Source of the DNA: Acidithiobacillus sp.
Lineage (GTDB): Bacteria > Pseudomonadota > Gammaproteobacteria > Acidithiobacillales > Acidithiobacillaceae
Assembly (NCBI GenBank): GCA_028697715.1
Contig: JAQVDS010000001.1
Coordinates: 115,932 to 179,931, forward strand
DNA: 64,000 nt
Direction: 5' to 3'
Numbering within the stretch: the stretch's first letter is position 1; each line of letters begins with the position of its first letter. This document shows, piece by piece, positions 5,433 to 56,286 of this stretch. The position numbers were made by a program, and so were the translations under genes. The notes under the pieces were generated by a model. It was not told the DNA's origin, made no database searches, and was given only the letters and a program-made list of their open reading frames with translations.

Positions 5433-5433
5433 A

Positions 5434-23709: not shown

Positions 23710-23731
23710 GAACAGAGCTTATCCAACAAAA

Positions 23732-39386: not shown

Positions 39387-39415
39387 TTGACAAATCTTCC
39401 GCTCTCGCCTACCTT
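39387..39415 (+). promoter_or_regulatory. sigma70-like promoter of the Ehr/crcB operon
   Basis: A perfect -35 TTGACA at 39387-39392 is followed after exactly 17 bases by TACCTT at 39410-39415, a 4/6 match to the -10 consensus. Transcription would begin near 39422, right at the first base of the fluoride aptamer. Confidence 0.75.
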
Positions 39416-39424
39416 ATAAAAAAA

Positions 39425-39474
39425 GGCGATGAAGTCCGCCTCGAACCGCCCCCGTGGCTAATGACTTCTACCAC
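39425..39474 (+). promoter_or_regulatory. fluoride (crcB-type) riboswitch aptamer
   Basis: The sequence has the layout of the fluoride aptamer. A 5' GGCG (39425-39428) can form the pseudoknot with CGCC (39437-39440). Stem 1 is GAAGTC (39431-39436) with GACTTC (39463-39468), six perfect pairs. An inner hairpin GCC/GGC (39448-39450, 39456-39458) is flanked by the conserved AACCGC and GGCTAATG segments. The 3' end is CTAC. These are the conserved features of the Rfam crcB motif and of the Thermotoga aptamer of known structure. It senses fluoride and should raise expression of downstream genes, which include crcB. Confidence 0.9.
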
Positions 39475-39498
39475 ATCCCCGCAAAATGGGGTGGTAGA
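39467..39498 (+). promoter_or_regulatory. expression-platform hairpin of the fluoride riboswitch
   Basis: TCTACCAC plus CCCC (39467-39480, with a two-base AT bulge) pairs with GGGGTGGTAGA (39488-39498) around a seven-base loop. Its left arm begins within the aptamer's stem 1 strand and conserved CTAC, so folding of aptamer and hairpin should compete. The following sequence, TTGTCTTCTGT, is only moderately T-rich, so it may be an imperfect terminator rather than a classic one. Confidence 0.7.
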
Positions 39499-39528
39499 TT
39501 GTCTTCTGTAGGCAGGGGGAGGTGCACG

Positions 39529-40467
39529 TTGAAGGATATTTTCTTGCAGGTGGCGCAGGTCCTGACGGTCCTGTTGCTCTCGCCTCTCCTGCACGGGTTC
39601 ATCGTCAAGATGGAAGAGAAGGTCCAGCGCGGCCAAGGTCCTTCCATCTTCCAACCCTATTGGGATCTCTGGAAGCTTTTCCACAAAACGCAGCTGGTGC
39701 CGGAAACGGCAACCTGGGTATTCTTCTGGGCGCCGGTGGTGGCTTTCGTGGCGATGATGATCGTGCCCATGCTCATCCCGGTGCTGACCAATTTTCCTCT
39801 GCCCCTTTCCGATATGGGAGACATCCTCGGCGGCGGTCTGATCCTGACCCTGGGGAGCTTTTTCATCTTGCTCGCCGGGCTCGACACCGGCCAGCCCTTT
39901 GGCGGTCTGGGATCGAGCCGGGCGGTGATGCTGGGCATCCTGGCGGAGCCGACGCTGATCCTGGTCTTTGTCGGCATCACCTTTCTCGATCATTCGATGC
40001 TGCCCTTTGTCGCCAATCACCTGCTGGCACAGAGTCCAGTGGCGTACTGGAGCCCGGCCCACATCTTTCTGGTCCTCGCCTTCATCATCCTGCTGACGGT
40101 AGAAACCGACCGTCTACCCATCCATTCCACCATCCCCTATGAAATCTACATGATCGACGAGGCGCGGATACTGGAATACTCCGGGCCGCTACTGGCGCTA
40201 CTGAAGTGGGCGAGCTGGATGAAGCAGTTCATCCTCTACACCATCTTTCTGAATGTCTTTCTCTTCCCGTGGGGCCTGTCGGTCAGCGGGGACTTTGGCT
40301 CGGTATTGCTGGCCCTGCTGGTCATCCTGGCGAAATATGGCGCCGTGGGGCTGTTCATGGTGATGGTGGATACGGTGCAGTCGCGCCTGCGTTTCTATCG
40401 CTACCAGGAGCCGCTGGCCCTGTCCTTTCTCTTTGCCGTACTCGCCATTGTGGCGGACCAACTCTAG
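39529..40467 (+). CDS. Ehr module 1: HyfC/NuoH-like membrane subunit
   Basis: A 312-residue membrane protein with about eight helices, of the HyfC/HycD/NuoH family that anchors the peripheral arm of complex I and group 4 hydrogenases. It has KVQRGQGPSIFQPYWDLWKL and the acidic loop TVETDRLPIHSTIPYEIYMI. The start is a TTG at 39529, chosen because GGGGGAGG lies six bases upstream; the open frame's earlier ATG at 39454 would start inside the riboswitch. First gene behind the fluoride aptamer. Confidence 0.87.
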   Translation: MKDIFLQVAQVLTVLLLSPLLHGFIVKMEEKVQRGQGPSIFQPYWDLWKLFHKTQLVPETATWVFFWAPVVAFVAMMIVPMLIPVLTNFPLPLSDMGDILGGGLILTLGSFFILLAGLDTGQPFGGLGSSRAVMLGILAEPTLILVFVGITFLDHSMLPFVANHLLAQSPVAYWSPAHIFLVLAFIILLTVETDRLPIHSTIPYEIYMIDEARILEYSGPLLALLKWASWMKQFILYTIFLNVFLFPWGLSVSGDFGSVLLALLVILAKYGAVGLFMVMVDTVQSRLRFYRYQEPLALSFLFAVLAIVADQL

Positions 40468-40476
40468 GAGCCTGCC

Positions 40477-41157
40477 ATGCTGATCTTCCATCTAGGCCCC
40501 CTGGCAACGTCGCTGTTCAGTCTGCTCGCCATCCTCGCCCTGGTGCTGTCTTTCGTGATGCTCGGTTCGCACTGGCTGAAAAATCATGTCTATGCCTTTG
40601 CCGCCGAGTCCTGGGTAATCGCCGCCATCTCGGCCTCCATCGGCTACTACGGACACTACCCGGAGCTCTATATCATCGCTGCCCTGTCGGCGCTCTTTCG
40701 CGGCAGCCTCCTGCCCTATCTGGTCCTGCGCCTGGTGAAACGCCTGCACATCAATCGCGAATTCACCCCCTTACTCAAGCCCTCGTCGAGCATGCTCCTG
40801 GGGGCGGCCCTGGTGATTTTTTCCTATGAGGTGGCGCGACAGCTCGGCGTTTCCCTGCATCTCACCGACAACATCGCGGTACTGGCGCTCACCTGCATGT
40901 TCAGCCTGAAATTGATCGGCTTTTTGATGATGATTCTGCGCTCCGAGGCCATCAGTCACATTCTCGGCCTGCTGGTCATCGAAAATGGCATTTTTCTCGG
41001 CTCGCAGATCATCGTTCCTGGCATGCCGGCACTGCTGGAGCTGGTCATCATTTTCGATCTGGTCACCATCGTCATGGCCTTTGGCATGCTGGTCCGCTTC
41101 CTGCAAAGTCACGCCGGGACCACCAGCAGCCGCGGCCTGCAGAAACTGGTGGGCTAA
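40477..41157 (+). CDS. Ehr module 1: HyfE/NuoK-like membrane subunit
   Basis: A 226-residue membrane protein with about seven helices, HyfE type. The C-terminal half resembles NuoK (SHILGLLVIENGIFLGSQII, with a buried glutamate). The protein is predicted to be part of the ion-translocation path. Starts nine bases after the HyfC-like gene, with TAGGAG upstream. Confidence 0.85.
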   Translation: MLIFHLGPLATSLFSLLAILALVLSFVMLGSHWLKNHVYAFAAESWVIAAISASIGYYGHYPELYIIAALSALFRGSLLPYLVLRLVKRLHINREFTPLLKPSSSMLLGAALVIFSYEVARQLGVSLHLTDNIAVLALTCMFSLKLIGFLMMILRSEAISHILGLLVIENGIFLGSQIIVPGMPALLELVIIFDLVTIVMAFGMLVRFLQSHAGTTSSRGLQKLVG

Positions 41158-41159
41158 GC

Positions 41160-42623
41160 ATGGTCGACTTCAATGCCCTGATCGCCGCCTTGTGGATCGT
41201 GCCATCGCTGGCGATTATTGCCATGCTCGCCATTCGCCGCCCTAGCTGGGGAGAGTTCCTCAATCTGGCCAGCGCCCTGGTGGTATTCGGCCTGACCCTG
41301 ACAATTCTGGTCGCCGCCCCGAATAATGCCGTAGTCAGCGCCGACCAGTATATCCTCATTACGCCACTGGGGGCTTGGGTGCTCTTCTGCGTCGGCGTCG
41401 TCTATCTCCTGGCCTCGATCTATGCCATCGGCTACATGCGCCTGCTACCGGAGGAAAGACCGCGTCTGCACAAATTTTACGCGCTGCAGGCGGGTTTCGC
41501 CCTGACCATGCTGATCGCGCCATTGATGAACAACCCGGGCATTTTCTGGATCGCCATCGATTTTACTACCATCGTCAGCGCCTTTCTGGTGGGCTTCGAA
41601 CGCGAGGCGGAGTGCATCGAGGCGGCCTGGAAATATCTGATCGTGGTCTCCGCGGGTCTGGCCCTGGCCCTGCTCGGTATCATCCTCTTTTATTGGGGCG
41701 GGACCTTTACCCTCGGACCCACCTATGCCCTCACCTGGGAGAACCTGCGCCTGACGGCTCCAAAGGTGCCAGAAGCGCTGCTGTTTTTCTCGTTTCTGCT
41801 CACCCTCGTCGGTTTTGGAACGAAAGTGGGTCTCGCGCCGATGCATACCTGGCTCCCCGATGCCCACAGCGAAGGTCCGGCCCCTGCCTCGGCGATGCTT
41901 TCCGGCGCACTGCTCAATATTGCCCTGCTCGGCATTTATCGTTTCCTTTCCATCGTCGACGCCGGGGGGTATAGCCTTATGAGCCACACGGCGCTGCTGG
42001 TCCTGGGGGTCATCTCTCTGGCAGTAGCGGGGCTCTTCATCGTGCGCCAGGATGGCGCCAAGCGCATGCTCGCCTATTCCTCCCTGGAGCACATGGGCGT
42101 GTTGGCCATGGGCTTTGGCTTTGGCGGACCGATCGCCTTCGCCGGGGCCATGTACCACATGATCAACCACTCACTGACCAAATCCCTGATGTTCTTCGGT
42201 GCCGGCAACATGATGCGCGCTTACGAAAGCAAGTCGATGAGCCAGATGCGCCGGATCCTGCGCTACTATCCCTTTTCCGGTGGGGTCTGGCTGCTGGGGG
42301 CGGTGGCGATTACCGGGGCGCCGCCCTTTGGTCTCTTTTTGTCGGAGATCACCATCCTGCGTGGCGGCATACTGAGCGCTAACCCTTGGGCCGTATGGGT
42401 AATGGCAGTGTTGCTGATCCTCATCTTTACCGCCTTCCTGAATCACTTTCGGCGCATGATCTGGGGTCCAGAGCCAGAACCCGGCAAGGAACCGACCCTC
42501 AAGTTATCGCTGTGGAACATCCTGCCCATGCTGCTTGCCTTCGTGCCCATACTGGTGCTTGGCCTGTGGTGGCCCAATGGCCTCTGGACCTTTTTTCAAC
42601 ATGCCTTTGCGGTGGCGCCATGA
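41160..42623 (+). CDS. Ehr module 1: HyfF/NuoN-like antiporter subunit
   Basis: A 487-residue antiporter-like subunit with about 14 helices. Characteristic segments are VGLAPMHTWLPDAHSEGPAP and LAYSSLEHMGVLAMGFGFGG, and FALTMLIAPLMNNPGIFWIA. Related to NuoL/M/N and Mrp subunits and expected to move H+ or Na+. Starts two bases after the HyfE-like gene and overlaps the HyfG-like gene as ATGA. Confidence 0.87.
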   Translation: MVDFNALIAALWIVPSLAIIAMLAIRRPSWGEFLNLASALVVFGLTLTILVAAPNNAVVSADQYILITPLGAWVLFCVGVVYLLASIYAIGYMRLLPEERPRLHKFYALQAGFALTMLIAPLMNNPGIFWIAIDFTTIVSAFLVGFEREAECIEAAWKYLIVVSAGLALALLGIILFYWGGTFTLGPTYALTWENLRLTAPKVPEALLFFSFLLTLVGFGTKVGLAPMHTWLPDAHSEGPAPASAMLSGALLNIALLGIYRFLSIVDAGGYSLMSHTALLVLGVISLAVAGLFIVRQDGAKRMLAYSSLEHMGVLAMGFGFGGPIAFAGAMYHMINHSLTKSLMFFGAGNMMRAYESKSMSQMRRILRYYPFSGGVWLLGAVAITGAPPFGLFLSEITILRGGILSANPWAVWVMAVLLILIFTAFLNHFRRMIWGPEPEPGKEPTLKLSLWNILPMLLAFVPILVLGLWWPNGLWTFFQHAFAVAP

Positions 42624-44116
42624 GAACGTCTCCCTTCACTCCTCAACTCGAAGTCCACGAGATCACGGCTGACGCCCTCGAAAGCCGTGCGCAGGACTGT
42701 CTGCAGCAAGGCATGCGCTTCCTCATGGCCTGGCATGACTGGGAAGAGGACGATGTCTGCGTCTTGCGCTATCTGCTCAGCCGTCCGGGGAACCCCCAGT
42801 TTTTGCTCTGGGAGCTGCGTGCCTCACAGCAGATCCCTTCCCTGGCGAAGCTGGTCCCGCTGCTCGGCTGGTACGAGCGAGAGATGCAGGAACTGGGAGG
42901 GGTCGAGTTCCTTGATCATCCCGAACCCTATCCCCTCGTGATTCACGAGGGCTACCAGCTCGCCGCAGCACCCCTTGGCCCGCAATACAGCGGTGAAAGC
43001 ATCACCGGCGCCTACGCATCCCCCACCATGCCCGAGATTGCCAACGATCAGGTGCAGGATCTCTATTGGGGGCCGGTGCGGGCGGATTTCGTGGAGACGG
43101 GAGAGTTCCACTTCTCGTATATCGGCGAGGCAATCCTCCATTATCACCCGCGCCTCTTTTACAAGCATCGTGGCCTGGAAAAGCGCTTTCAGGGCATGTC
43201 CGCGGAGTCGGCGGTGTTCCTCGCCGAGCGCGTATCCGGCGTGGGGAGCGCCTGCCATGCCTTGACCTACTGCCAAGCGGTCGAGGCAGCCTGGGGCATC
43301 GAAGTGCCGTGGCGGGCACAGTTGTTGCGGGTGATCATCGTGGAGCTGGAGCGCCTCTATAATCATCTCCATTTCTTCGGGCTGCTCGCCAAAACCACGA
43401 CGCTCAAGGTGGGCTCGGCCACCGGTCTGCTACTCGAAGAGCGGGTCAAACAGCTGAACGGCAAGCTCACCGGCTCACGTTTCCTGCGTGGGCTGTTCTG
43501 CGTTGGCGGATTGCGCCGCGATCTCGCTGCCGAGCATCTGGACGGCGATCTGGAGACCTTCATTTACGAAGCCGATGCCTACCTGCAAGACCTTCACGAT
43601 ACTGCCACTCACCTCGATCGCCTCATGGGTACGGGGGTGCTGCCCAAGCAAGCCGCCTTCGATCAGGGAGCGACCGGCCCGGTGGCGCGCGCCTCCGGCC
43701 TGGATCGGGATCTGCGCCGTGACCATCCCTATGCTGCCTACCACAAACTGCGCTTCAACGTGCCGGTGCGCGAAAAAGGCGATGCCATGGCCCGTGCCGA
43801 GGTACGTGCCGAATCGCTGCGCGAGGCGCTGGCGTTGATCGTGCAGGCAGCGGGCCGCCTCAAGCCGGGGCCCGTGCGCGCCGATTTTGCCATCCCCGAT
43901 GGCGAGCAGGCGGGGCTGGGTTGGGCAGAAAGCCCACGCGGCTCCCTGCTCTATGCCGTGCGTATCCGTGCGGGGAAACTACAACGGGTGAAGATCAAGT
44001 CGCCATCATTTTCCAACTGGCGGGTCTTTCCCCTCACCGTACACGACACCAACCTGATGGACTATGCCATCAATGAGGCCAGTTTTGGTTTGACCATTGC
44101 TGGTTGCGATCGCTAG
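42620..44116 (+). CDS. Ehr module 1: HyfG-like large subunit lacking [NiFe] ligands
   Basis: A 498-residue fusion of a NuoC-like N-terminus (WYEREMQELGGVEFLDHPEP) and a NuoD/hydrogenase-large-subunit-like C-terminus, the HycE/HyfG layout. In true [NiFe] enzymes the first nickel motif is RVCGIC-x-x-x-H; here it is RVSGVGSACH at residues 204-213, so both cysteines are lost. The C-terminal DPCxxC motif is replaced (SFGLTIAGCDR). It therefore cannot hold the [NiFe] site, which places it with the Ehr group linking complex I and hydrogenases. The electron acceptor or substrate is unknown. Confidence 0.88.
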   Translation: MRTSPFTPQLEVHEITADALESRAQDCLQQGMRFLMAWHDWEEDDVCVLRYLLSRPGNPQFLLWELRASQQIPSLAKLVPLLGWYEREMQELGGVEFLDHPEPYPLVIHEGYQLAAAPLGPQYSGESITGAYASPTMPEIANDQVQDLYWGPVRADFVETGEFHFSYIGEAILHYHPRLFYKHRGLEKRFQGMSAESAVFLAERVSGVGSACHALTYCQAVEAAWGIEVPWRAQLLRVIIVELERLYNHLHFFGLLAKTTTLKVGSATGLLLEERVKQLNGKLTGSRFLRGLFCVGGLRRDLAAEHLDGDLETFIYEADAYLQDLHDTATHLDRLMGTGVLPKQAAFDQGATGPVARASGLDRDLRRDHPYAAYHKLRFNVPVREKGDAMARAEVRAESLREALALIVQAAGRLKPGPVRADFAIPDGEQAGLGWAESPRGSLLYAVRIRAGKLQRVKIKSPSFSNWRVFPLTVHDTNLMDYAINEASFGLTIAGCDR

Positions 44117-44125
44117 GGGGACGAG

Positions 44126-44917
44126 ATGCCATTCTGGACCTGGACAGGAATCAAGAACGGTCGTGCCAACACCCAATGGCCAGCCCGTGGGCCAGACGGT
44201 CAGGAGGGAGTGCTGGGGATGCCCCGCTGGCAACCGGAGCGCTGCGTGCCGGACTGTCAGGCCTGCGCCGATGTCTGCCCAACGGCAGCCATTCACCGCG
44301 AAGACGACGGCATGAGCATGGATTACGGGCGCTGCATCGTCTGCCAGGCCTGTGTCGAGGCTTGCCCACAGGAGGCGATGCTGCCCTCGGGGGACTGGGC
44401 CTTTGCCGTGCGCGACCGCCAGGATCTGCACTGGCAAGCGACGCTAAGCAGCCCTGCCGCCAAGGACTTGCAAAACAAAGTGGTGGGCAGCCTGCGGCGC
44501 AGTCTGCACATCAAGCACGTGGATGCCGGCTCCTGCAATGGCTGTGAGTCGGAAATCGGCGCCCTCGACAATCCTTTTTATAACCTGCATCGCCTGGGGA
44601 TCTTCTTCACCCCCTCGCCCCGCTTTGCCGATCTACTGCTGGTAACCGGACCGGTGACCGCCCCCATGCGTAACCCCCTGCTGGCTACCTGGGAGGCCAT
44701 GCCGGAGCCTCGCATGGTACTCGCTGTCGGCGCCTGTGCAGTCTCCGGGGCACCTATGGATGCTGGCTATGCCGGCGGGCATGGTCTGGATGGCGTGCTG
44801 CCAGTAGATGTCTGGCTGCCCGGCTGCCCGCCCAATCCGGCGGCGCTCATCCATGCCCTGCTTCTGCTCCTGGAGCGGCAGCCGCAGCGGGTAGAAGGAG
44901 GCCATTATGCTGACTAG
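44126..44917 (+). CDS. Ehr module 1: ferredoxin-HyfI (NuoB-like) fusion subunit
   Basis: A 263-residue soluble subunit that joins a 2[4Fe-4S] ferredoxin domain to a NuoB-like domain. The eight ferredoxin cysteines are C40, C44, C47, C51, C70, C73, C76 and C80; the first motif has an extra residue (C-x3-C). The N2-type ligands C137, C140 (SCNGCESE), C204 (GACAVSG) and C234 (PGCPP) are complete. In E. coli Hyf the ferredoxin part is separate (HyfH), so this fusion supplies both roles. An electron path of three clusters to the NuoD-like subunit is expected. Confidence 0.87.
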   Translation: MPFWTWTGIKNGRANTQWPARGPDGQEGVLGMPRWQPERCVPDCQACADVCPTAAIHREDDGMSMDYGRCIVCQACVEACPQEAMLPSGDWAFAVRDRQDLHWQATLSSPAAKDLQNKVVGSLRRSLHIKHVDAGSCNGCESEIGALDNPFYNLHRLGIFFTPSPRFADLLLVTGPVTAPMRNPLLATWEAMPEPRMVLAVGACAVSGAPMDAGYAGGHGLDGVLPVDVWLPGCPPNPAALIHALLLLLERQPQRVEGGHYAD

Positions 44918-46865
44918 TTTTGCCATCGCCGTCCTACTCCTTCTGTTGACGATTCCCTTGGGGCTGCTGCGTCTGACGGTTCTCGCACGGCTGACGGTGC
45001 TGGCCGGCAGCATTGCCATTGTGGTAGGCAGCGCCCTGGCCTTACCCCAGTCCCAGCAAGCGGCAGTGCTCTGGCCCTTGAGCGCGGAGCTGGTGAGCTG
45101 GATGCTGCAACCGGCGGCGGCCTGGCTGCTCTTTTTTGGGGCGCTGGCGGCCGTTGCGGCCTTTCTTTCGCCTTGCCGGGCGCGCCGCCCGCACCTCTGG
45201 TATGCCGGCGCCGCAGTTGCCTTGCTGGGCAGTCTTGGCGTGGCCGGCCTGCAGGAAGGCATCGCCTTTTTGATCGCCTGGGAATTCCTCAGCTTTGGCG
45301 GGGCCATTCTGTTGCTGGCGGATCGCGGCGAGGCCGTGGCACGTTCGGGGCTGGCCAATCTCTACATGCTGGCCTTGCTGGAGATCGGGGCAGTGGCGCT
45401 GCTACTCTGCGTGCTGCTGCTTGGCGCCAGCGATACGCAGTTTTCCACCTGGGCCGCAAGCTGGGCGCAGTACCCCAATACTGCCTTTGGCATTGCCGTG
45501 CTCTTTATCATTGGTTTTGGCGCGAAACTGGGCCTTCTGCCCTTCTACGAATGGTATCCCGGAGCCTATGGCAGCGGCACCGGCGCTTCCGGAGCCCTGC
45601 TTTCCGGCATCGTGCTGAATGTGGCTTTTTTTGCCCTTGGACGGGCCATCCTCGACTGGCTACCCGTCGGCTCGGCCACCAGCACGGGCATCCTGCTCGT
45701 CGCCGTCGGTACCGTATCGTCCATCCTCGCTATTCTCTACGCCTTTCAGCAGGATGATTGGCGTCGTCTGCTCTCCTTTTCGACGGCAGAGAATGCCGGC
45801 CTGGCAGTGGTGGCGCTGGGTGCTGCCTCGCTCTTTCGCGCCGAGGGCTTTGTCGCACTGAGCACCCTGGCCTGGACCGTGGCCCTGATTCATCTGGGGG
45901 GCCATAGCCTTGCCAAGGGCAGCATGATGCTGTCTGCCGATCGTGCTGCCGACGTCAAGGGTGACTATCAGATCGCGCAAAGCCGGATCCTTGCCCTGGC
46001 CCCCTGGACTCTGGGCTTCGGGGCGGTGCTAGGGGCCATGAGTCTGGCCGCCATGCCCCCCACCGCTGGTTTTGCCGGCGAGTGGTATCTCTTTCAGACC
46101 GTCTTTCAGGACTTCCATTTACACAATACCGCCGCACGGATTGCCCTTGCCCTGAGCGGAGCCGGACTGGCGCTGACCGCCGCCATCGCCCTGGCGACCA
46201 TGATCAAGGTCTTTGGCGTCGGACTCCTGGGCGGTGGGGAGGCGCGTCGGCGTCCTGGCGGCACCTGGCCCGTCCTCCTGCTGGGTCTTCTCGTCCTGCT
46301 CTATGCCGTGGTCCTGCCCTGGAGCCTGCACTGGCTGCGCTTTGCCCACTGGCCAGCTGACCCCCAAGCCGTCCAGGCCATGACCCAAGGGCCAATTCTC
46401 ATTCCGCTGCACTTCCACTTTGCCTTCATTTCGCCCCCCTTGCTCTTGCTGGTAGGGCTGCTCTTTGCCTTGCTGCCCGTGGGTCTCATCGTTTGGGGCC
46501 ATTTGCAACAAGGACGGCGACGGGTACCGGTCTGGGCGCACGGCCTGCGTCAGGTGCCGGCACCAAATGCCGTCACGGCGCTTGCCTTCTCCAATGCCCT
46601 GCGGGTGTTCTACAGCTTCGTGTATCGGCCTACGAACGATCTGCAGCGGCAACATCACGGGCGGGAATATTTTGTGCGAGAACTACATTTCAATTACAGC
46701 GAGGCACCATTTTTTGGGCCGTGGCTCTTTCGTCCCATAGTGCGGCTGACACAGATTTTGGCAGACCGCATCGGACTCGCCCTGCAGAATGGTTCACTGA
46801 ATGCCTACTTAGCGTATATCGGGCTCTTGCTCATCGTCATATTCGCCAGTGTTTTCTATAGTTGA
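44907..46865 (+). CDS. Ehr module 1: HyfB/NuoL-like antiporter subunit
   Basis: A 652-residue antiporter-like subunit with about 15 helices. It has AFLIAWEFLSFGGAILLLAD, GFGAKLGLLPFYEWYPGAYG and SFSTAENAGLAVVALGAASL, then a C-terminal extension (YFVRELHFNYSEAPFFGPWL). The HyfB/HycC type is most similar. Starts inside the preceding gene, with GGAGG upstream. Last gene of module 1; crcB follows after 19 bases. Confidence 0.86.
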   Translation: MLTSFAIAVLLLLLTIPLGLLRLTVLARLTVLAGSIAIVVGSALALPQSQQAAVLWPLSAELVSWMLQPAAAWLLFFGALAAVAAFLSPCRARRPHLWYAGAAVALLGSLGVAGLQEGIAFLIAWEFLSFGGAILLLADRGEAVARSGLANLYMLALLEIGAVALLLCVLLLGASDTQFSTWAASWAQYPNTAFGIAVLFIIGFGAKLGLLPFYEWYPGAYGSGTGASGALLSGIVLNVAFFALGRAILDWLPVGSATSTGILLVAVGTVSSILAILYAFQQDDWRRLLSFSTAENAGLAVVALGAASLFRAEGFVALSTLAWTVALIHLGGHSLAKGSMMLSADRAADVKGDYQIAQSRILALAPWTLGFGAVLGAMSLAAMPPTAGFAGEWYLFQTVFQDFHLHNTAARIALALSGAGLALTAAIALATMIKVFGVGLLGGGEARRRPGGTWPVLLLGLLVLLYAVVLPWSLHWLRFAHWPADPQAVQAMTQGPILIPLHFHFAFISPPLLLLVGLLFALLPVGLIVWGHLQQGRRRVPVWAHGLRQVPAPNAVTALAFSNALRVFYSFVYRPTNDLQRQHHGREYFVRELHFNYSEAPFFGPWLFRPIVRLTQILADRIGLALQNGSLNAYLAYIGLLLIVIFASVFYS

Positions 46866-46884
46866 TGGTAAGGAGAAAAAATAG

Positions 46885-47262: not shown

Positions 47263-47272
47263 GAGGTGAAGC

Positions 47273-48790: not shown

Positions 48791-49749
48791 GTCCGGTGCT
48801 GAGCCATTTTTTGCTCAACGGTGTGCAGATGGCATTTCTGCTGGCTTTCTCACCCCTCTTGGAGGGGATCCTGCATCGTCTGGAGGAAATTATTCAGGGC
48901 AAACAGGGTCCCAGTATCTGGCAGACCTATCGGGATATCTGGAAACTCTTCGGCAAGGATGAGGTGATTTCAGAAGAGAGCAGCTGGATATTTCGTCTCG
49001 CACCCCTGATCGCTTTTGTCATGCCCCTCTTTGTGGTGCTGTTGATTCCCGCAGTGACCGCCTTTCCACTCTTTTTCGCGTTCATGGGAGATATGGTCGC
49101 GGTCGGCTTTCTCATGGCCATCGCCGGTTTCTTTGTGGCCCTGGCCGGCATGGACACGGGCAATGTTTATGCCGCCGTCGGTGCCAGCCGCACCCATATG
49201 GTCGGTTTCCTGGCAGAACCGGTGTTCATCATGGTCTTCTTCAGCGTCTCCTATGTGGCCAACAGCACCATACCCTACGTTGTCAACGCCACCTGGGCGA
49301 CATCCTGGGGCAGCATGCTGCAACCGGCGCATCTCCTCGTCATCCTCGCCTTTTTCCTGCTGATTCTGGCAGATGAGGGCCGCATTCCAGTGGATAGCCC
49401 CGCCGGCAAGGTCGAGATCGCCATGATTGGGCACTCAAAAGGACTGGAATATTCCGGCAGCAGTGCGGCTTTGATGAAATGGGGCGGCGCCATGAAGCTC
49501 ATGGTCCTGGCGCTGATTTTTGTCAATGTGTTGATCACTCCCTGGGGCTTGAGCAGTACCACCCAGCCTCTCGATGTCCTGCTCGCCATTGTGCTCGTCT
49601 GTCTCAAGTTGTTGGGTTTTGTTGTCGTCCTTGCCTTGGTCGAGACGAGTCTGGCCAAGTTACGTTTGTTTCGGATCACGGAATTTCTGGCGGTCGCTTT
49701 TGTGATCTGCCTTTTTGCCGTGAGCGTGCGCCTCGTGGGGATCGGCTGA
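48787..49749 (+). CDS. Ehr module 2: HyfC/NuoH-like membrane subunit
   Basis: A 320-residue membrane protein, paralogue of the first module's HyfC-like subunit. Both share the QGPSI-x-Q-x-Y-x-D-x-WKLF loop and ALAGMDTG-type sequence. The acidic loop differs (ILADEGRIPVDSPAGKVEIA). The ATG at 48787 overlaps the VIT-like stop, with GGGG upstream. The in-frame ATG at 48697 lies inside the VIT-like gene. Confidence 0.87.
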   Translation: MSPVLSHFLLNGVQMAFLLAFSPLLEGILHRLEEIIQGKQGPSIWQTYRDIWKLFGKDEVISEESSWIFRLAPLIAFVMPLFVVLLIPAVTAFPLFFAFMGDMVAVGFLMAIAGFFVALAGMDTGNVYAAVGASRTHMVGFLAEPVFIMVFFSVSYVANSTIPYVVNATWATSWGSMLQPAHLLVILAFFLLILADEGRIPVDSPAGKVEIAMIGHSKGLEYSGSSAALMKWGGAMKLMVLALIFVNVLITPWGLSSTTQPLDVLLAIVLVCLKLLGFVVVLALVETSLAKLRLFRITEFLAVAFVICLFAVSVRLVGIG

Positions 49750-50423
49750 TGCAAGTGTCTTCTGTTGCCTTCCACCTGGATGGTTCCATTGCCGCTCTCT
49801 TTATCGTGCTTGGGCTGGGCTCGATGGTTGCCCGCCAGATGTATGCGTCTCTGCGTTTCTTCATGTGGCAGGCGATTGCACTCACGCTCTCTGCCCTGGT
49901 GCTGGCGGCCAGTCTGCAAGCCATCAATCTCCTCTGGGTCGCGATCATCACCTTCGTCACCAAGGTGATCGCCGTTCCTTTGGTACTGCGCTGGGCAGCC
50001 GGTGCAGAGGTCTACGGCCGCCGCGAGGTGGATCAGGTCATCGGCATCCCGACCACCGTGCTGGCCGCGGCGATGCTCGCCCTGCTCGGCTGGTTTGCGG
50101 TAGCGCCGACACTGCCACTGCTGCAGGGCGTCCCCTTTGCTCCGCTGAATCTGCCCACTGGGCTTATCATGGTGCTCTGGGGGGCCTTCACGGTCGCGAT
50201 TCGCCGCGAGAGTGTAGCGCAACTCATGGGGCTACTCTTGATGGAAAACGGCGCGTTTTTCGGCTCCATTGCCATCGTCCACAACCTGACGGTAATTGCA
50301 GAAATCGCTGCGGCAGTGGATGTGCCTATCGTGGCGCTGGTCATTGGCCTTCTCATTCGCAACATTCGTCGCGTTACCGGCAGTACCCGGGTCAGCGAAC
50401 TGGATCGCCTGCATGAACGCTGA
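49749..50423 (+). CDS. Ehr module 2: HyfE/NuoK-like membrane subunit
   Basis: A 224-residue membrane protein with about seven helices, HyfE type. VAQLMGLLLMENGAFFGSIA parallels the IENGIFLGS segment of module 1, keeping the buried glutamate. The start overlaps the previous stop (TGATG) and the gene ends inside the next gene. Confidence 0.85.
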   Translation: MQVSSVAFHLDGSIAALFIVLGLGSMVARQMYASLRFFMWQAIALTLSALVLAASLQAINLLWVAIITFVTKVIAVPLVLRWAAGAEVYGRREVDQVIGIPTTVLAAAMLALLGWFAVAPTLPLLQGVPFAPLNLPTGLIMVLWGAFTVAIRRESVAQLMGLLLMENGAFFGSIAIVHNLTVIAEIAAAVDVPIVALVIGLLIRNIRRVTGSTRVSELDRLHER

Positions 50424-51885
50424 TTGGCTTCCCGCGCTAATTCTGCTACTTCCCCTGGCAGGCGCCCTGCTCTCCGTGCCGCGGCAGGATTTTGCCCCTT
50501 ACGTCAGTCTGGTCGCGGCGCTGGGCACCCTTGCCCTCTCCATCGTCGCCGCCCTCTGGGTGACCGCCAATGGGACCCTGCACGGGGGCCCGATCTTTGC
50601 GCTCGACCCCCTGGGGGCACTGTACCTGTTACCTGTGAGCTTCGTGTATTGCACATCTTCACTCTATGCCATCGGCTACCTTTGGGCGCGACGCCAGGAA
50701 CAGCGAGAAAACGAATCGCCGCCCCGTTATCGTCAGTATTTCCCCTTGATGAATGTCTTTGCCCTGGTCATCCTGGCAGTGCCGCTCCTGGCGAACTTGG
50801 CGCTGATGTGGATCGCCATCGAACTAACTACCGTCTTCTCGGCCTTCCTGGTGGCCTATGAAGACCGTGCCGAAGCATTGGAAGCGGCCTGGAAATACGT
50901 GGCGCTGACCAGCATGGGGGCCATGATCGCTTTGCTCGGCGTGCTATTGCTATATTATGCCACCCATGCCGCAGGTACCCCCCCAACCTGGGCTGGCCTG
51001 CTGGCGGCGGCGCCCAGGATTCCGGGGCCACTTCTGCTTCTTGCCTTCGTCCTTTGGCTGATTGGTTTTGGTGCTAAGGCCGGACTGGTGCCCATGCATA
51101 CCTGGCTGCCAGATGCCCACAGCCAGGCCCCGGCTTCGGTCTGCGCCGTGCTCTCCGGGGTCGAGACCAGCGCTGCCCTCTACATGATCCTGCGCCTCTT
51201 CCCCATCCTGGCCAGCAATCCCCAGATCCACGATCCTGCCGCATGGTACCTGGTACTGGGCCTGATCACCGTTGGGAGTGCCGCTTTTCTGTTATTGCAG
51301 GTCCATGACTTCAAGCGCATGTTTGCCTATTCCACGATCGAACACATGGGTATCATTCTGACCGCCTGTGGCCTGGGGGCAGCCGCGCACGAAAGCGGCA
51401 CGGTCTACCAGCTCTTCGCCCATGGCTTTACCAAATCACTGTGCTTTTTCGCTGCGGGACTCGCGGGCATCGTTTTTGGCACCCAGGAAATTGCCAAGGT
51501 ACGTGGTCTGATCAGCCGCGCACCATTAGTGGGGTGGGCATTGGTGCTGGGAACCCTGGCGATCGCCGGCGCGCCGCCTTTCGCGCTGTTCCTTTCAGAA
51601 TTTGAAATTTTGCGTTCTGGCTATGGCAGTGGCCAGTATCTCGCGACTGGCCTCCTGACCCTTTTCATCGCCCTTGCCTTCATTGCCCTCACCTATCAGA
51701 GTACCCGGATTGCCTTTGGCAAACCCGAAGATACCGTTCGTGGGCCAGCCATCCGCCTACCTCGTAGCAGTCTCCTCGCGTTGATTATTGCCTTTGTTCC
51801 GGTGTTCCTCTTTGGCTTCTATCTGCCTCCCCCTCTCACCCACCTGGTGCAGGAAGCAGCCCATATGCTGGAGCTGACGAAATGA
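50413..51885 (+). CDS. Ehr module 2: HyfF/NuoN-like antiporter subunit
   Basis: A 490-residue antiporter-like subunit with about 14 helices. It has AGLVPMHTWLPDAHSQAPAS and FAYSTIEHMGIILTACGLGA, like its module 1 counterpart. It should be one of the two large ion-pump subunits of the second complex. Overlaps both neighbours. Confidence 0.87.
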   Translation: MNADWLPALILLLPLAGALLSVPRQDFAPYVSLVAALGTLALSIVAALWVTANGTLHGGPIFALDPLGALYLLPVSFVYCTSSLYAIGYLWARRQEQRENESPPRYRQYFPLMNVFALVILAVPLLANLALMWIAIELTTVFSAFLVAYEDRAEALEAAWKYVALTSMGAMIALLGVLLLYYATHAAGTPPTWAGLLAAAPRIPGPLLLLAFVLWLIGFGAKAGLVPMHTWLPDAHSQAPASVCAVLSGVETSAALYMILRLFPILASNPQIHDPAAWYLVLGLITVGSAAFLLLQVHDFKRMFAYSTIEHMGIILTACGLGAAAHESGTVYQLFAHGFTKSLCFFAAGLAGIVFGTQEIAKVRGLISRAPLVGWALVLGTLAIAGAPPFALFLSEFEILRSGYGSGQYLATGLLTLFIALAFIALTYQSTRIAFGKPEDTVRGPAIRLPRSSLLALIIAFVPVFLFGFYLPPPLTHLVQEAAHMLELTK

Positions 51886-53462
51886 GTGAGGCTACCGGCC
51901 TGCGGCATTGGCTGCAATCCTACCCGGCTCTCTCGTTGAGCGAGGTTGACGGTTACTGTCTGCGCCTGGTCTGCACCCCGGAGCAGCTCCCTGGCCTGGC
52001 TCGCGAGCTGGTAGAACATTGGCAAGCAGAGTTCGCGACCCTGCTCGTCGAGGAACACCCGGACAGGGCCCTATCTTTCACCGTTCGGTACTATTTCTAT
52101 GCGCCCCGCCAGCATCACCTTCTGGAGTTGCGCATCGCTGTTGCCCCGGGGACGGAACTACCTGCCATCAGTGACGCCGTACATGCTGCCGACTGGCATG
52201 AACGGGAAGCCTGGGACCTTTATGGCCTGCGCTTTACCGGACATCCCTTCCTTGGTGATTTCGTATTGCATGATGAGGATTGGCCAGAAGGCGTAGACCC
52301 CATGCTGCATCGCTTCTCCGCCAGACAACGACCAGCAGGGGAGGGCTCCGGCGAGCACTGGCAACCGCCGCAGCTACTCGAAGAAGAAGGCGCCATCGTC
52401 TTTCCGGTTGGACCCATCTGGGGCGACTACAACGAGTCCGGCCTCTGGTTGCTGGAAACCCCGGGGGAACAGATCCGTTACCTGCATACCCGGCTTTTTT
52501 ACAAGTATCGGGCCGTGGAAAAGATCGCCGAGGGACAGGCCGTCGATCAGGCATTTCTCCTCAGTGAACGCTTTGCCGGGGCGGCGGCCCTCGCGCACAG
52601 CTGGGCATATTGCCAAGCCGTCGAACGCATTGCCGGCTGTACGGCCCCTCGCCGCGCCGAGCAACTACGGATCCTCTTTGCCGAGCTGGAACGGGCCCGC
52701 CATCACTGCGCCAATATTGCGGAAATCTGCGGCTCCACCGCCCTGTCCGTGGCCAAGGCAATGGCACAAAATTTGGTAGAGGACTGGCTGCGTCTCAGTG
52801 CACAGGTAGCCGGCCATCGCTATCTGTTTGGCCTGTTGTGCCCAGGCGGTCTGCGTCAGGATCTGCACGCGGAGCAGCGGAACCTCTGGATCGCCGCCCT
52901 GGCACGCCTGCGTCGCGATCTGTTGGCGCTGCGCGAACACCTGGAAACCAGCTCGAGTTTTCTCGACCGTATCGAGGAAATGGGCACATTGACAGCGGAT
53001 TTTGCCAAGACCTTTGGCGTGGTGGGGCCCATCGCCCGCGCCTCGGGCCGCGCCCTCGATCTGCGCCGGCATTTACCCTATGGCGCCTATTCTGAATGGG
53101 AACCGGAAATTCCGACCGAGGAGCAGGGAGACGGCTATGCGCGACTGCGTATCTTCTTTGCGGAAACCCTGATCAGCATTGGGCTCATGGAGGAAATGCT
53201 GACCCAGATCGCCGACGGACCGATCAGAACCGAATGCCCGATCCGTGCTGGTCATGCCCTGGCCTGGGTGGAGGCGCCCTCTGGAGCGACCTTTCACTGG
53301 CTCCGCCTGGCAGAAGACGGCAGTGTGTTGCGTCTGCGCCTAGGCACTCCGGGCTTCCGCAACTGGCACGCTTTCGAACGGGCGATCCAAGGGGCCGCCT
53401 TCCAGGACTTTCCCATCATCCTGGCCACCTGGGGCCTGTCGGTAGCGGAGAACGATCGCTGA
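51882..53462 (+). CDS. Ehr module 2: HyfG-like large subunit lacking [NiFe] ligands
   Basis: A 526-residue NuoC-NuoD-like fusion. The NuoC part has WHEREAWDLYGLRFTGHP. The first nickel motif is reduced to RFAGAAALAH at residues 230-239, with no cysteine, and the C-terminal motif is ATWGLSVAENDR, again with no cysteine. It is 28 residues longer than the module 1 protein and quite diverged, so the two complexes probably do different work or pair with different donors. Starts in an ATGA overlap. Confidence 0.88.
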   Translation: MSEATGLRHWLQSYPALSLSEVDGYCLRLVCTPEQLPGLARELVEHWQAEFATLLVEEHPDRALSFTVRYYFYAPRQHHLLELRIAVAPGTELPAISDAVHAADWHEREAWDLYGLRFTGHPFLGDFVLHDEDWPEGVDPMLHRFSARQRPAGEGSGEHWQPPQLLEEEGAIVFPVGPIWGDYNESGLWLLETPGEQIRYLHTRLFYKYRAVEKIAEGQAVDQAFLLSERFAGAAALAHSWAYCQAVERIAGCTAPRRAEQLRILFAELERARHHCANIAEICGSTALSVAKAMAQNLVEDWLRLSAQVAGHRYLFGLLCPGGLRQDLHAEQRNLWIAALARLRRDLLALREHLETSSSFLDRIEEMGTLTADFAKTFGVVGPIARASGRALDLRRHLPYGAYSEWEPEIPTEEQGDGYARLRIFFAETLISIGLMEEMLTQIADGPIRTECPIRAGHALAWVEAPSGATFHWLRLAEDGSVLRLRLGTPGFRNWHAFERAIQGAAFQDFPIILATWGLSVAENDR

Positions 53463-54181
53463 TGAGCTTCTGGCCTTGGTATGGACTGCGTGGCGGGCAA
53501 CAAACCGAATCCTGGGAGGCTTCCGTGCCGGCAGGCGCCAGCCCTGGCCGACCTGTGGCGGCTGCGCGCCAGGATGCCGACCAGTTCTCCATGATCTGTC
53601 CCACTCAGGCATTACGGGCGCAGGCAGGGAGGGTGGAAGTGGAGATGGATCACTGCGTGCACTGTCAACGCTGTCGTCAGGGAGCGGATCCCTTACCCTG
53701 GCAAGAGGATGCTGCCTGGAGTCATTGGCGGGATACCCATGCGCAACCCTTTCCTGCCCGTTTCCGTCGTTCCCTGCACGTTCTGTACGTCGACGCGGGG
53801 GCCTGCGGCGCCTGTGTCAACGAGATCCGTCTGGTCGATGCTCCGGTGTATAACTTGCACCGTTTTGGCATCTTCATCACGGCCACACCGCGGGATGCTG
53901 ACGTGCTACTGGTTTCTGGCCCCATTACCGACGCCATGCACCGGGCCGTAGTCAAGGCCTATGCCGCCATGCCGGAGCCCAAGCGAGTGCTTGGTATGGG
54001 AGTTTGCGCCATCAACGGTGGGGTGTTTGGGAAAAGCTTCGCGAGTCACGGTGGCCTGGAGGGCGTGATCCCAGTCGACCTCTGGATTCCTGGCTGCCCA
54101 CCGCCGCCGCTCGCCATTATCGAAGGGCTGCGCAGGCTCATGGGCTGGACAAACGGCCCCGCGGAAAGGGAGGTTCGCTGA
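53462..54181 (+). CDS. Ehr module 2: HyfI-like subunit with reduced ferredoxin domain
   Basis: A 239-residue protein laid out like the module 1 ferredoxin-NuoB fusion. The N2-type ligands C115, C118 (GACGAC), C182 (GVCAING) and C212 (PGCPP) are intact. In the ferredoxin part only C46 (MICPT), C65, C68 and C71 (CVHCQRC) remain. These four are exactly the set that would ligate one of the two clusters in a 2[4Fe-4S] ferredoxin; the other four are gone. The ATG at 53462 overlaps the preceding stop (TGATG). A long open frame in another phase from 53096 is not the gene's start. Confidence 0.87.
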   Translation: MSFWPWYGLRGGQQTESWEASVPAGASPGRPVAAARQDADQFSMICPTQALRAQAGRVEVEMDHCVHCQRCRQGADPLPWQEDAAWSHWRDTHAQPFPARFRRSLHVLYVDAGACGACVNEIRLVDAPVYNLHRFGIFITATPRDADVLLVSGPITDAMHRAVVKAYAAMPEPKRVLGMGVCAINGGVFGKSFASHGGLEGVIPVDLWIPGCPPPPLAIIEGLRRLMGWTNGPAEREVR

Positions 54182-56286
54182 TGCTCTACGTCGCCGCCTA
54201 TCTTCTGGCTTTTCTCGCTCCCCTCCTCGTCCTCCTGCCTGGTCGTCGCGCGACTGCCCTGCTGGCATGGCTGAGCATGGAAGCAGCCGCCGTGCTGCTC
54301 GCCCTTCAGGGAGTTTTGGCCATGGGTAATGGCAAGCTACCCCTGATCCAACTGCAACTGCCGGTCATCGGCGCCTTTACTTTTGCCCAGACGCCTCTCG
54401 CCGGGCTGTTGATACTGATTACCGCTGTGGTATTCGCCATGGCCCTGCCCTTTGTCGCGCACGACGCCAATGCCTATCCGCGCGGACGGCAGGCCCTGTT
54501 CTGTGCCGTGGTACTGCTTACCCTACTTGGAATGACAGGATTCTTCCTGGCCAACAGCGTTGCCGCCTTTCTGTTCTGCTGGGAGATCGCGGCCCTCTCC
54601 ATCTGGGCGATCATCACCTTCGAAACCCGGCAGAGCAAACCCGTGGCCGCAGGACTACTGACCCTCGCTCTATCTGAGATCGGCAGCCTGGCGGGACTGG
54701 CGGGGCTGCTGTTGCTCGCCGCAGGCGCGCACAACGACCGCTTTGGCCCGATCATCGCGGCGATTCCGACGCTTTCGCCATCCTTGTTACTCGCGGCGGG
54801 GCTTCTCGCCTTCTTCGGATTTGGCATGAAGGCGGGGGTGATACCACTCAATGTGTGGCTCCCCGAGGCCCATGGAACCGCGCCACGTTCCACTTCCCCC
54901 ATCCTTTCCGGCGCAACCCTCAACCTGGGGCTCTATGCCTTTTTGCGCATCGATGCCCCTATCGCCCTGCACATGCCGCATCTCGGCCTCATCATTCTGA
55001 GCACTGGTGCACTCACTGCCCTGATCGGCATTCTCTATGCCCTGGTCGAGCGCGACATGAAGCGACTGCTCGCGCAGAGTTCCGTAGAGAATATGGGGAT
55101 CGCCACCGCCGGTATCGGTGCTGGTCTGACCTTTACAGCGTATGGCTATCCTCTGCTCGGCGGCGCAAGTCTGGTGGCGGGCCTCTATCACATGATCAAC
55201 CATTCCAGCTTCAAAACGCTGCTCTTTCTTGGCGCGGGGGGGATCGATGCCGCTACGGGCACCCACAATCTCGATGCCCTGGGTGGGTTGATGAAACGCC
55301 TTCCCGTGCTGAGCAGTCTCTTCGTCGTGGGGGCCCTTGCCATTGCCGCACTGCCACCCTTCAATGGCTTCGTCAGCGAATGGTTGCTTTTGGAATCGCT
55401 GCTTCGGGTGGTGGAAATTCCTGAGGTTCCAGTACGCATTACCTTCGCCCTCTCCGGCGCATTGCTCGCCCTGACCTCCGGTCTCGCCCTCACCTGTTTC
55501 ATCATGCTGCCGGGAATGGCCCTGCTCGGTCTGCCGCGCTCTGCAGCAGCGCGCACTGCGCGCCCCGCCCCCTTGGCCGTGACGCTACCCATGGCCCTGC
55601 TCGCTTTGCTCTGTCTGCTGCTCGGGGTGGGGGCAACGGCAGTCATCCCCGTGCTGGGCCGCATTGCCGAAGGAATTCTGGGCAGTAATCCTACGGCCAG
55701 TCTGGTTCCCGATTTCTTCTCCACTTCCAGCAGCATACCGACGGCCGTACGCCATGCCCTGGCACCCTTGGGCACCGAGATTGGCGCCAGCTGGCTGCCG
55801 CTGCGCGGACTTGCCGTCATGCACCTTAACAGCAGCGCGCCTGTGGTCTACGCCATGTCTACCCTGCTGACCATGCTGGTTCTGCTGTCCCTGCTGGGAA
55901 TCGTCTGGCTGCTGGTGCGTGGCCTACGGCAGCGGAGGGTAACACGGGCTACACTTTGGGATGCCGGTCTGCTGCGGCTGCGTCCGGAGATGACCTACAC
56001 CGCGAGCACCTTTGCGGCACCTGTTCGGGTGGTTTTTCGCAGTTTCCTGCGGCCATCGGTACAGAGCACCGAGGATCGGCAAGGGGCTTTTTTACTCAAC
56101 CTGCGGCACAGTGAGGTGATCAACAACATTTCCGAACGCCTGATAATAGGCCCTATTCGCAGTGCTGCCACGGCAATCGCCGCGTTACTGGCCCGGATGC
56201 ACCATGGTAAGATCAATACCTACGCGGCCTACATCCTCGCCGCGATGGTACTTGCCTTGCTTTTCCTCATCGCGGCGAACTCATGA
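54181..56286 (+). CDS. Ehr module 2: HyfB/NuoL-like antiporter subunit
   Basis: A 701-residue antiporter-like subunit, 49 residues longer than its module 1 paralogue. It has AAFLFCWEIAALSIWAIITF, GMKAGVIPLNVWLPEAHGTA and AQSSVENMGIATAGIGAGLT. The C-terminal extension shares the VFRSFLRP region seen as VFYSFVYRP in module 1. Last gene of the operon; the ATG overlaps the previous stop, and no T-tract terminator is seen before the next gene. Confidence 0.87.
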   Translation: MLYVAAYLLAFLAPLLVLLPGRRATALLAWLSMEAAAVLLALQGVLAMGNGKLPLIQLQLPVIGAFTFAQTPLAGLLILITAVVFAMALPFVAHDANAYPRGRQALFCAVVLLTLLGMTGFFLANSVAAFLFCWEIAALSIWAIITFETRQSKPVAAGLLTLALSEIGSLAGLAGLLLLAAGAHNDRFGPIIAAIPTLSPSLLLAAGLLAFFGFGMKAGVIPLNVWLPEAHGTAPRSTSPILSGATLNLGLYAFLRIDAPIALHMPHLGLIILSTGALTALIGILYALVERDMKRLLAQSSVENMGIATAGIGAGLTFTAYGYPLLGGASLVAGLYHMINHSSFKTLLFLGAGGIDAATGTHNLDALGGLMKRLPVLSSLFVVGALAIAALPPFNGFVSEWLLLESLLRVVEIPEVPVRITFALSGALLALTSGLALTCFIMLPGMALLGLPRSAAARTARPAPLAVTLPMALLALLCLLLGVGATAVIPVLGRIAEGILGSNPTASLVPDFFSTSSSIPTAVRHALAPLGTEIGASWLPLRGLAVMHLNSSAPVVYAMSTLLTMLVLLSLLGIVWLLVRGLRQRRVTRATLWDAGLLRLRPEMTYTASTFAAPVRVVFRSFLRPSVQSTEDRQGAFLLNLRHSEVINNISERLIIGPIRSAATAIAALLARMHHGKINTYAAYILAAMVLALLFLIAANS

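Follow-up and report, generated by a model that had tools for sequence, protein, structure and literature searches.

Why should a fluoride riboswitch stand in front of genes that look like those of a hydrogenase? The question is raised by a stretch of 64,000 nucleotides (64 kb, hereafter "the window") within the 2.46 Mb draft genome of an Acidithiobacillus species (assembly GCA_028697715.1, contig JAQVDS010000001.1, positions 115,932 to 179,931). Here, a fluoride riboswitch precedes a tightly packed run of genes for two Ehr complexes (Ehr1 and Ehr2), which belong to the complex I superfamily, and, between them, for the fluoride channel CrcB. A preliminary description, made from the sequence letters, had reported a 17-gene run of this kind and had read it as a system in which an Ehr pump clears the acid brought in by HF and helps fluoride to leave the cell. 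The arrangement proved to be as described. The interpretation fared unevenly: the riboswitch is real, the complexes are of Ehr type, and their link to fluoride recurs, whereas the idea of one riboswitch shared by both modules holds only in part. As we show below, a general link between Ehr1 and fluoride is strongly supported.

The run consists of 17 co-directional open reading frames behind the riboswitch. A start-site scan puts the gaps between them at -16 to +19 nucleotides (nt), the largest being before crcB, which bears out the earlier figure of no more than 19 nt. The genes come in the order Ehr1 (six subunits), crcB, DUF190, HEAT/zinc-ribbon, DUF211, VIT1-like, and Ehr2 (six subunits), and within each Ehr module the order is NuoH-, HyfE-, and HyfF-like, large, small, and HyfB-like. 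Domains were assigned with Pfam and NCBIfam; the HyfE-like and VIT1-like proteins match only below the curated cut-offs. The leader and the genes are as follows.

39387-39415, + strand: predicted promoter from sequence, TTGACA-17 nt-TACCTT, weak -10
39416-39477, + strand: fluoride riboswitch aptamer RF01734 (cmscan 57.4 bits, gathering score 34)
39478-39528, + strand: expression platform, a hairpin capturing the pseudoknot strand; predicted translational ON switch (folding models)
39529-40467, + strand: Ehr1 NuoH/HycD/HyfC-like membrane subunit, TTG start (PF00146, 110 bits)
40477-41157, + strand: Ehr1 HyfE-like membrane subunit (NF008556 below cut-off; no Pfam match)
41160-42623, + strand: Ehr1 HyfF-like antiporter subunit (PF00361; ion-path K222, K341, E396)
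42620-44116, + strand: Ehr1 large subunit, NuoCD/HycE-like, no nickel-iron (NiFe) ligands (PF00346, PF00374, PF00329; RVSGVG, SFGLTIAGCDR end)
44126-44917, + strand: Ehr1 small subunit, a two-[4Fe-4S] ferredoxin domain fused to a NuoB-like domain (PF01058, Fer4)
44907-46865, + strand: Ehr1 HyfB-like antiporter subunit (PF00361)
46885-47262, + strand: crcB, Fluc-family fluoride channel (PF02537 96.3 bits; TIGR00494 over cut-off)
47273-47590, + strand: DUF190 protein (PF02641), which recurs behind fluoride riboswitches
47575-47982, + strand: HEAT-repeat and zinc-ribbon protein, start at 47575 or 47587 (PF13646; zinc ribbon just under cut-off)
47982-48269, + strand: DUF211 protein (PF02680)
48266-48790, + strand: VIT1-like membrane protein, partial (PF01988, 27.6 bits against a cut-off of 28.1)
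48787-49749, + strand: Ehr2 NuoH-like subunit (PF00146)
49749-50423, + strand: Ehr2 HyfE-like subunit (NF008556 and PF00420, both below cut-off)
50413-51885, + strand: Ehr2 HyfF-like antiporter subunit (PF00361)
51882-53462, + strand: Ehr2 large subunit, no NiFe ligands (PF00346, PF00329; RFAGAA, GLSVAENDR end)
53462-54181, + strand: Ehr2 small subunit, NuoB-like, reduced ferredoxin part (PF01058)
54181-56286, + strand: Ehr2 HyfB-like antiporter subunit (PF00361)

Gene 7 is crcB, as first described. It exceeds the cut-offs of both families (PF02537, 96.3 vs. 32.9; TIGR00494, 88.0 vs. 80.45), and no second CrcB was detected in the genome. Two other contigs carry three CLC-family genes between them.

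The hydrogenase likeness has left its mark on the annotations and on the literature (papers are cited here by PMC number). 'Formate hydrogenlyase' is listed among the common fluoride riboswitch genes (PMC8004769), and a review that names it too explains the link by formate metabolism, reading it as formate oxidation (PMC11139923); the preliminary remark that such genes had been noted near these riboswitches was correct. Several sources label relatives of the window proteins as formate hydrogenlyase subunit 5 or nickel-dependent hydrogenase. The subunit plan and overall sequence relation are indeed shared with formate hydrogenlyase/hydrogenase 4, and the best solved relatives are formate hydrogenlyase subunit 5 (7z0s_E) for both large subunits and subunit 7 for the Ehr1 small subunit. 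Taken at face value, the genes would make H2 from formate.

The residues and the genome content speak against this. Compared with the solved formate hydrogenlyase large subunit, RVCGIC is replaced by RVSGVG in Ehr1 and by RFAGAA in Ehr2, and the proteins end in ...GLTIAGCDR and ...GLSVAENDR, respectively, where the DPCxxC ligands would be, with no C-terminal extension past the final DR. We take DPCxxC to be the NiFe-ligand motif at the large-subunit C terminus. It is found at none of the 86 complete C termini of Ehr1 relatives, all of which end in SFG... (some genomes are entered twice, under two locus ids, in this count and in the residue counts below), and the NiFe-ligating cysteines are absent from Ehr1 and Ehr2 of the window and from 12 aligned relatives. 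For the N-terminal NiFe motif, a simple pattern missed four Ehr1 rows and landed elsewhere in two. A search of the genome with PF00374 found no full NiFe hydrogenase, only three partial matches, all of them Ehr-like large subunits. Among the 17 genes, Pfam and NCBIfam reveal neither a formate dehydrogenase nor an NADH module (NuoE, F, G); a formate-dehydrogenase-like gene on another contig scores below its curated cut-off. On missing ligands and genome content we reject a hydrogenase or formate hydrogenlyase identity, and production of H2 from formate is scarcely credible. Judged by their missing ligands, both complexes are of the non-hydrogenase Ehr type, as the preliminary description had held.

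What the complexes have kept is equally telling. The Ehr1 small subunit has 12 iron-sulfur (FeS) cysteines that are invariant in 83/83 rows, and that of Ehr2 has eight cysteines invariant in 10/10 rows (residue counts are restricted to rows that reach a set identity and 80% coverage). In the Ehr1 antiporter-like subunits, K222, K341, and E396 of the HyfF-like protein are invariant in 93/93 rows and the ion-path K/K/E of the HyfB-like protein in 78/78; the ion-path lysines and glutamate are likewise invariant in 9/9 rows for each Ehr2 antiporter subunit. The helix-5 (TM5) acid of the Ehr1 HyfF-like rows is D (47) or E (46). With FeS cysteines and ion-path residues invariant and the NiFe motifs gone, the FeS electron-transfer and ion-pumping parts have been kept and the hydrogen site lost.

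The likenesses and differences are best seen against the nearest known systems. Like known Ehr complexes (PMC6349859), those of the window combine large and small subunits of group 4 hydrogenase type with membrane subunits that resemble Mrp antiporters, and the NiFe ligands are missing. They differ in forming two separate clades tied to fluoride riboswitches, in lacking a formate dehydrogenase or Nuo E/F/G partner, and in the fusion of a ferredoxin domain to the small subunit. The complex I (nuo) genes of the same genome adjoin the operon upstream (24723-37795, + strand, from NuoB to the last antiporter-type subunit, eight genes Pfam-scanned) and encode homologous NuoB, CD, H, and L/M/N-like subunits, whereas Ehr1 and Ehr2 lack the NADH module. 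Ehr1 also lacks, in the alignment, a tyrosine that we take to be the quinone-site residue of complex I. Beside the nuo genes lie DabA and a DabB-like, NuoL-type partner (19573-23729, - strand), a candidate inorganic-carbon pump.

A quick-method tree of 77 large subunits separates Ehr1 (50 rows, support 100), Ehr2 (nine rows, support 97), and a third clade (17 rows, support 100), each being one side of a branch; a very long branch to the complex I outgroup leaves the root unsure. A member of the third clade is present in this genome, on contig 43 (about 4480-11500; locus L321). It too lacks the NiFe C-terminal motif, but it differs from the window Ehrs in clade, in gene order (antiporter-C-E-F-L-S), and in having no fluoride riboswitch. 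In gene order it resembles the A. ferrooxidans hyf cluster, which has the order B-C-E-F-G-I and was noted to be a non-hydrogenase by HydDB (PMC7735108), and it is probably of the kind described as a group 4 hydrogenase in that species.

Is the riboswitch in front of Ehr1 more than a coincidence of one genome? Among named genomes, 362 relatives of the Ehr1 NuoH-like subunit were found by protein, and the best 80 were kept and inspected for riboswitches, which were scored with a model built in this analysis. In 78 of the 80 loci, a riboswitch lies 42-249 nt before the aligned NuoH-like start. In the other two, both confirmed by Rfam, it lies one to three genes upstream (riboswitch-crcB-HIT-DUF190-Ehr1 in L219 and riboswitch-HIT-Ehr1 in L225). 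It should be noted that the query alignment for this search was built from riboswitch loci, which may bias it toward such loci. An independent check came from a search of 369 Gammaproteobacteria genomes with a single window protein, with up to four candidates scored per genome. Seven genomes, spanning five families, encode an Ehr1 large subunit with at least 55% identity, all other matches being at 36% or less. In all seven, Ehr1 is directly behind a riboswitch, although only 21 of the 369 genomes have a riboswitch over cut-off (hypergeometric 7e-10, kinship ignored). The association reported for the window clearly recurs beyond it.

The control points the same way. Among 20 loci with other Ehr-like large subunits, no riboswitch was found at the 19 of the third clade (best score 10.8 bits), and the 20th (L303) is an Ehr2 with a marginal 22.9-bit site. 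The seven class genomes, the 80-locus sample, and the 19 riboswitch-free loci together rule out chance association. The riboswitch-linked Ehr1 loci carry the phylum labels Pseudomonadota, Acidobacteriota, and Actinomycetota, and the names on their records include Acidithiobacillus, Thiomonas, Halothiobacillus, Paraburkholderia, Burkholderia, Caballeronia, Candidimonas, Frateuria, Rhodanobacter, Acidobacteriaceae, and Actinomycetes (many of the records are bins from metagenomes and may be mislabeled). Ehr1 is present in records of A. ferrivorans and A. marinus and in soil Paraburkholderia (L226, L265).

Ehr2 is rarer. At 50% identity or more, it was found in five of the 369 class genomes: that of the window, G068, G295, G262, and G176. 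Those of G068, G295, and G262 have an upstream riboswitch over cut-off (in G262, 622 nt with a partial NuoH-like stretch intervene), and that of G176 has a marginal site of 22.9 bits, under the Rfam threshold. Two of the named loci (L238, L271) likewise have a fluoride riboswitch ahead of the NuoH-like gene of Ehr2. In G262 (L103/L190), Ehr1 and Ehr2 face each other, each with its own fluoride riboswitch, and in G295 (L107) a riboswitch-led Ehr2 operon has two consecutive HyfB-like genes, then crcB and DUF190. Altogether, nine of the 24 riboswitch places over cut-off in the class sample outside the family (19 genomes; a second place of G385 was left out) lead into Ehr1 or Ehr2, in seven genomes. 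Ehr is a minority use of the fluoride riboswitch; for Ehr1, the riboswitch is the rule, being nearly always present.

The surroundings are also those of a fluoride regulon. The window has RF01734, crcB, and DUF190 in common with the known regulon (crcB motif), and its relatives share with it genes for enolase, CLC, MutS-like, and Usp proteins; that enolase and exporters accompany this riboswitch is already known (PMC11139923). The window differs from the typical regulon in that the first and largest genes encode Ehr complexes and in that the platform looks translational. At least two riboswitches were seen in 40 of the 80 named loci, the additional ones standing before DUF190, CLC, MutS-like, Usp, MFS, and dynamin-like GTPase genes, and enolase is the second gene behind a riboswitch in L204. 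Some loci amount to fluoride islands, with 4-7 riboswitches in about 20 kb (L222, L223, L226, L227, L228, L230, L251, L257, L265, L267, and L269); some of the riboswitches in them precede genes without a Pfam match.

Could the Ehr genes be mere passengers, sharing the transcript of crcB as the only gene that matters for fluoride? The Acidithiobacillaceae give this idea some footing. The riboswitch was found in 26 of the 29 family genomes analyzed, and 28 riboswitch loci were fetched. Ehr1 is directly behind the riboswitch in 15 of these, in 15 genomes besides that of the window. Seven others have only NuoH-like gene fragments and then crcB, and one has a HyfB-like fragment and then crcB (remnants in L040, L045, L049, L050, L051, L052, L054, and L056). 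Ehr1 was not seen at four loci (L031, L037, L042, L046), of which L042 has the order riboswitch-crcB-DUF190, and L058 ends too early to judge; three genomes (G008, G018, G022) each have one locus with and one without Ehr1. Ehr1 has been repeatedly lost while the riboswitch-crcB core, in several cases with DUF190, was kept, and outside the family Ehr is missing from most fluoride riboswitch loci. Against this stands the constancy of the riboswitch wherever Ehr1 was found (80 loci), often with no crcB just behind: in 31 of the 57 loci reaching that far, no crcB and no DUF190 turned up in the 1.5 kb after Ehr1 (in some, crcB is elsewhere, before Ehr1 in L219 and on the other strand in L221, L228, L248, L253, and L254). 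Ehr2, moreover, has its own riboswitch at other places. We therefore regard the passenger explanation as very improbable. Given the position of the riboswitch just before Ehr1 in 78/80 relatives, the complexes are likely dedicated to fluoride defense.

The same family loci qualify the claim that one riboswitch serves both modules. In the window, gene packing argues for it: HEAT and DUF211 have one base in common, and no second riboswitch is present. In five related genomes (G001, G006, G009, G010, and G016), module 2 has its own riboswitch, placed between the HEAT gene and DUF211/VIT/Ehr2; it was confirmed by Rfam in L033 and L038 and found by our own model in L193, L195, L196, L197, and L199. 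The modules thus are separable but still tied to fluoride.

How would the riboswitch act? The RF01734 aptamer, far over its gathering score, is the sole Rfam match over threshold in the window (cmscan) and the single fluoride riboswitch found in the whole draft genome, and the full aptamer reported earlier is clearly there. In an alignment of 28 aptamers (all picked by the Rfam model, which favors structure), 97.0% of cells in the two stems and pseudoknot pair. Eight pairs have changed on both sides, against a shuffled mean of 3.4, a value reached by none of 500 shuffles. Four of five covariation measures exceed all 500 shuffles, the exception being further pair types (15 vs. 14.3). The pseudoknot and both stems are supported by covariation.

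The promoter claim stands in part. The -35 TTGACA at 39387 is exact, but the -10 TACCTT matches TATAAT at only three of six positions, which is why a consensus scan omits the promoter. An exact TTGACA occurs within 60 nt upstream of four of nine aptamers of other families (L087, L091, L095, L103). The competing hairpin of the preliminary description is a real fold, although it is better described as part of a ribosome-site switch. In the minimum-energy fold of the leader (-47.5 kcal/mol, z -2.8; 4/200 shuffles fold as well), the Shine-Dalgarno GGGGGAGG pairs with aptamer CCGCCCCC, and the pseudoknot strand is tied up in the hairpin. Holding the aptamer folded raises the modeled Shine-Dalgarno access from 0.03 to 0.46, which predicts a translational ON switch. 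We modeled 22 leaders (one from the window and 21 from the set of 80 named loci), choosing Shine-Dalgarno sites by a crude rule. In all 12 family leaders (the window, L192-L201, and L211), the aptamer is the main pairing partner of the Shine-Dalgarno, and in 10 the site becomes freer when the aptamer is held (exceptions L197 and L199). Leaders from outside the family were mixed, with six of eight freer and two unchanged (L216 and L246 could not be parsed). An intrinsic terminator was rejected as the switch: the U-run of the hairpin is weak, and terminator-like sites across 39200-57700 on both strands are at chance level (17 vs. 17.2 in shuffles). The leader is better explained by a translational platform.

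The 17 genes first counted are confirmed, but the run probably extends to 19 with two further genes.

56377-57633, + strand: cyclopropane fatty-acid synthase, probable 18th gene, after a 90 nt gap (PF02353)
57618-58217, + strand: histidine phosphatase, probable 19th gene (PF00300)

The synthase is downstream in 21 of the 28 fetched family loci, and in L204, L231, L240, and L261 a fluoride riboswitch precedes a relative of it by 125-571 nt (two of the alignments are partial, covering 65% of the gene in L261 and 27% in L231, where the fetched sequence ends), so that it probably belongs to the fluoride regulon. A synthase led by the riboswitch suggests that tightening of the membrane is one element of the response to fluoride. 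The histidine phosphatase is about 0.27 kb after Ehr1 in L101 and L102.

What might the complexes do? Acidophiles are reported to have an inside-positive membrane potential (PMC12831704), at which CrcB by itself could not lower internal F- beneath the level of free F- outside. Simple Nernst arithmetic with assumed values illustrates the problem. If HF alone could cross the membrane, equilibrium with 1 mM fluoride at pH 2 would require about 2 M F- inside a cell at pH 6.5. With an open channel (pH 2, 1 mM total fluoride), internal F- would be 0.44 mM at +50 mV, 0.063 mM at 0 mV, and 0.0013 mM at -100 mV, each 59 mV toward negative lowering internal F- tenfold. An electrogenic proton exporter would both relieve the acid load of HF and make the inside more negative.

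We favor, as somewhat more likely than not, a mechanism in which fluoride switches the run on and the complexes pump protons out, helping F- to leave through CrcB. At low pH, HF would cross the membrane and split inside into H+ and F-, and each F- leaving by the channel would leave one proton behind. F- would fold the aptamer and free the ribosome site, turning translation on. Low-potential electrons, most likely from reduced ferredoxin, would enter through the small subunit, at its FeS clusters, and reach an acceptor where the NiFe pocket used to be, and this transfer would drive proton export via the HyfF- and HyfB-like subunits. Export would remove the HF-borne acid and make the inside more negative, so that CrcB could drain F- further. 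Cyclopropane fatty acids and the small DUF proteins may assist by making the membrane tighter or by adjusting ions. Sequence evidence backs the aptamer, the packing of the genes, the missing NiFe ligands, the intact lysines and glutamates of the ion path, the intact FeS cysteines, and the riboswitch tie across phyla. A review connects fluoride export with the proton motive force and pH homeostasis, and fluoride stress with cytoplasmic acidification; among genes under the riboswitch, it ranks Na+/H+ antiporters second in frequency to exporters (PMC11139923).

Several observations weigh against this proposal. Ehr1 keeps neither the NiFe site nor, by alignment, the quinone-site tyrosine of complex I, and the direction of the complexes could be reversed. 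The fragments or absence of Ehr1 at family loci imply that it is dispensable to the riboswitch-crcB core. In G008, G015, G018, and G022, a gap of about 300 nt between the HEAT and DUF211 genes has no second riboswitch (none at the Rfam threshold in L044, L047, L048, and L057, and none in L044 at E 10), so a fluoride-blind promoter of module 2 is possible there. Finally, in a phylum sample of 398 genomes, 57 of which have a riboswitch over cut-off, Ehr genes were present at 0/51 riboswitch loci fetched (62 places over cut-off besides that of the window and one in the class set, 11 being unfetched), and Ehr1 was found in no genome of the sample except that of the window.

Reversal deserves attention in its own right. 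Proton influx along the gradient of an acid habitat could push electrons uphill to ferredoxin or a similar carrier and so restore the reducing power that fluoride stress takes away. The FeS wiring fits both directions, and reverse electron transport driven by the proton motive force has been proposed for an A. ferrooxidans group 4 complex (PMC2621215); to judge from gene order, though, the clade concerned is probably the third, riboswitch-free one. Reverse operation would also worsen the acid load from HF, and published riboswitch regulons abound in exporters and Na+/H+ antiporters, that is, in pH defense (PMC11139923). We consider it unlikely. A more direct solution would be for the antiporter-like subunits to move F- themselves or to exchange H+ for F-, making the complex a respiration-driven exporter. 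The 31 of 57 loci in which no crcB was found just downstream of a riboswitch-led Ehr1 would suit such a pump, as would the usefulness of active export at an inside-positive potential. The ion-path lysines and glutamates, however, match those of proton-moving relatives, and we know of no member of the complex I superfamily that moves a halide, which makes direct fluoride pumping improbable. If true, it would let bacteria of very acid habitats expel fluoride where an inside-positive membrane defeats the passive CrcB.

Proton pumping in support of CrcB is thus the reading that we carry forward, as a plausible mechanism for the Ehr complexes. Among the matches listed in a search of open-licence PMC papers, none linked fluoride riboswitches with Ehr or complex I-like genes. 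In a fly-ash proteome, a 'formate hydrogenlyase' went up and later down (PMC12053936); the passages on it do not name the cluster, the letters 'fluor' appear nowhere in the paper, and we have not used it as evidence.

The riboswitch-linked 'formate hydrogenlyase' in print includes an apparently fluoride-dedicated, non-hydrogenase branch of the complex I superfamily. Two clades derived from hydrogenases have no NiFe site, and one of them, Ehr1, is led by a fluoride riboswitch in 80/80 loci inspected (78 directly). Fluoride is reported to stop acidophiles in bioleaching (PMC12831704), and relatives within the Acidithiobacillaceae differ naturally in having none, one, or both of the complexes, which is where the relevance to bioleaching lies. 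If the Ehr complexes pump protons, orphan Ehr complexes would gain a physiological role open to testing with added fluoride, and these bacteria would have kept a respiratory machine for defense against one inorganic poison.

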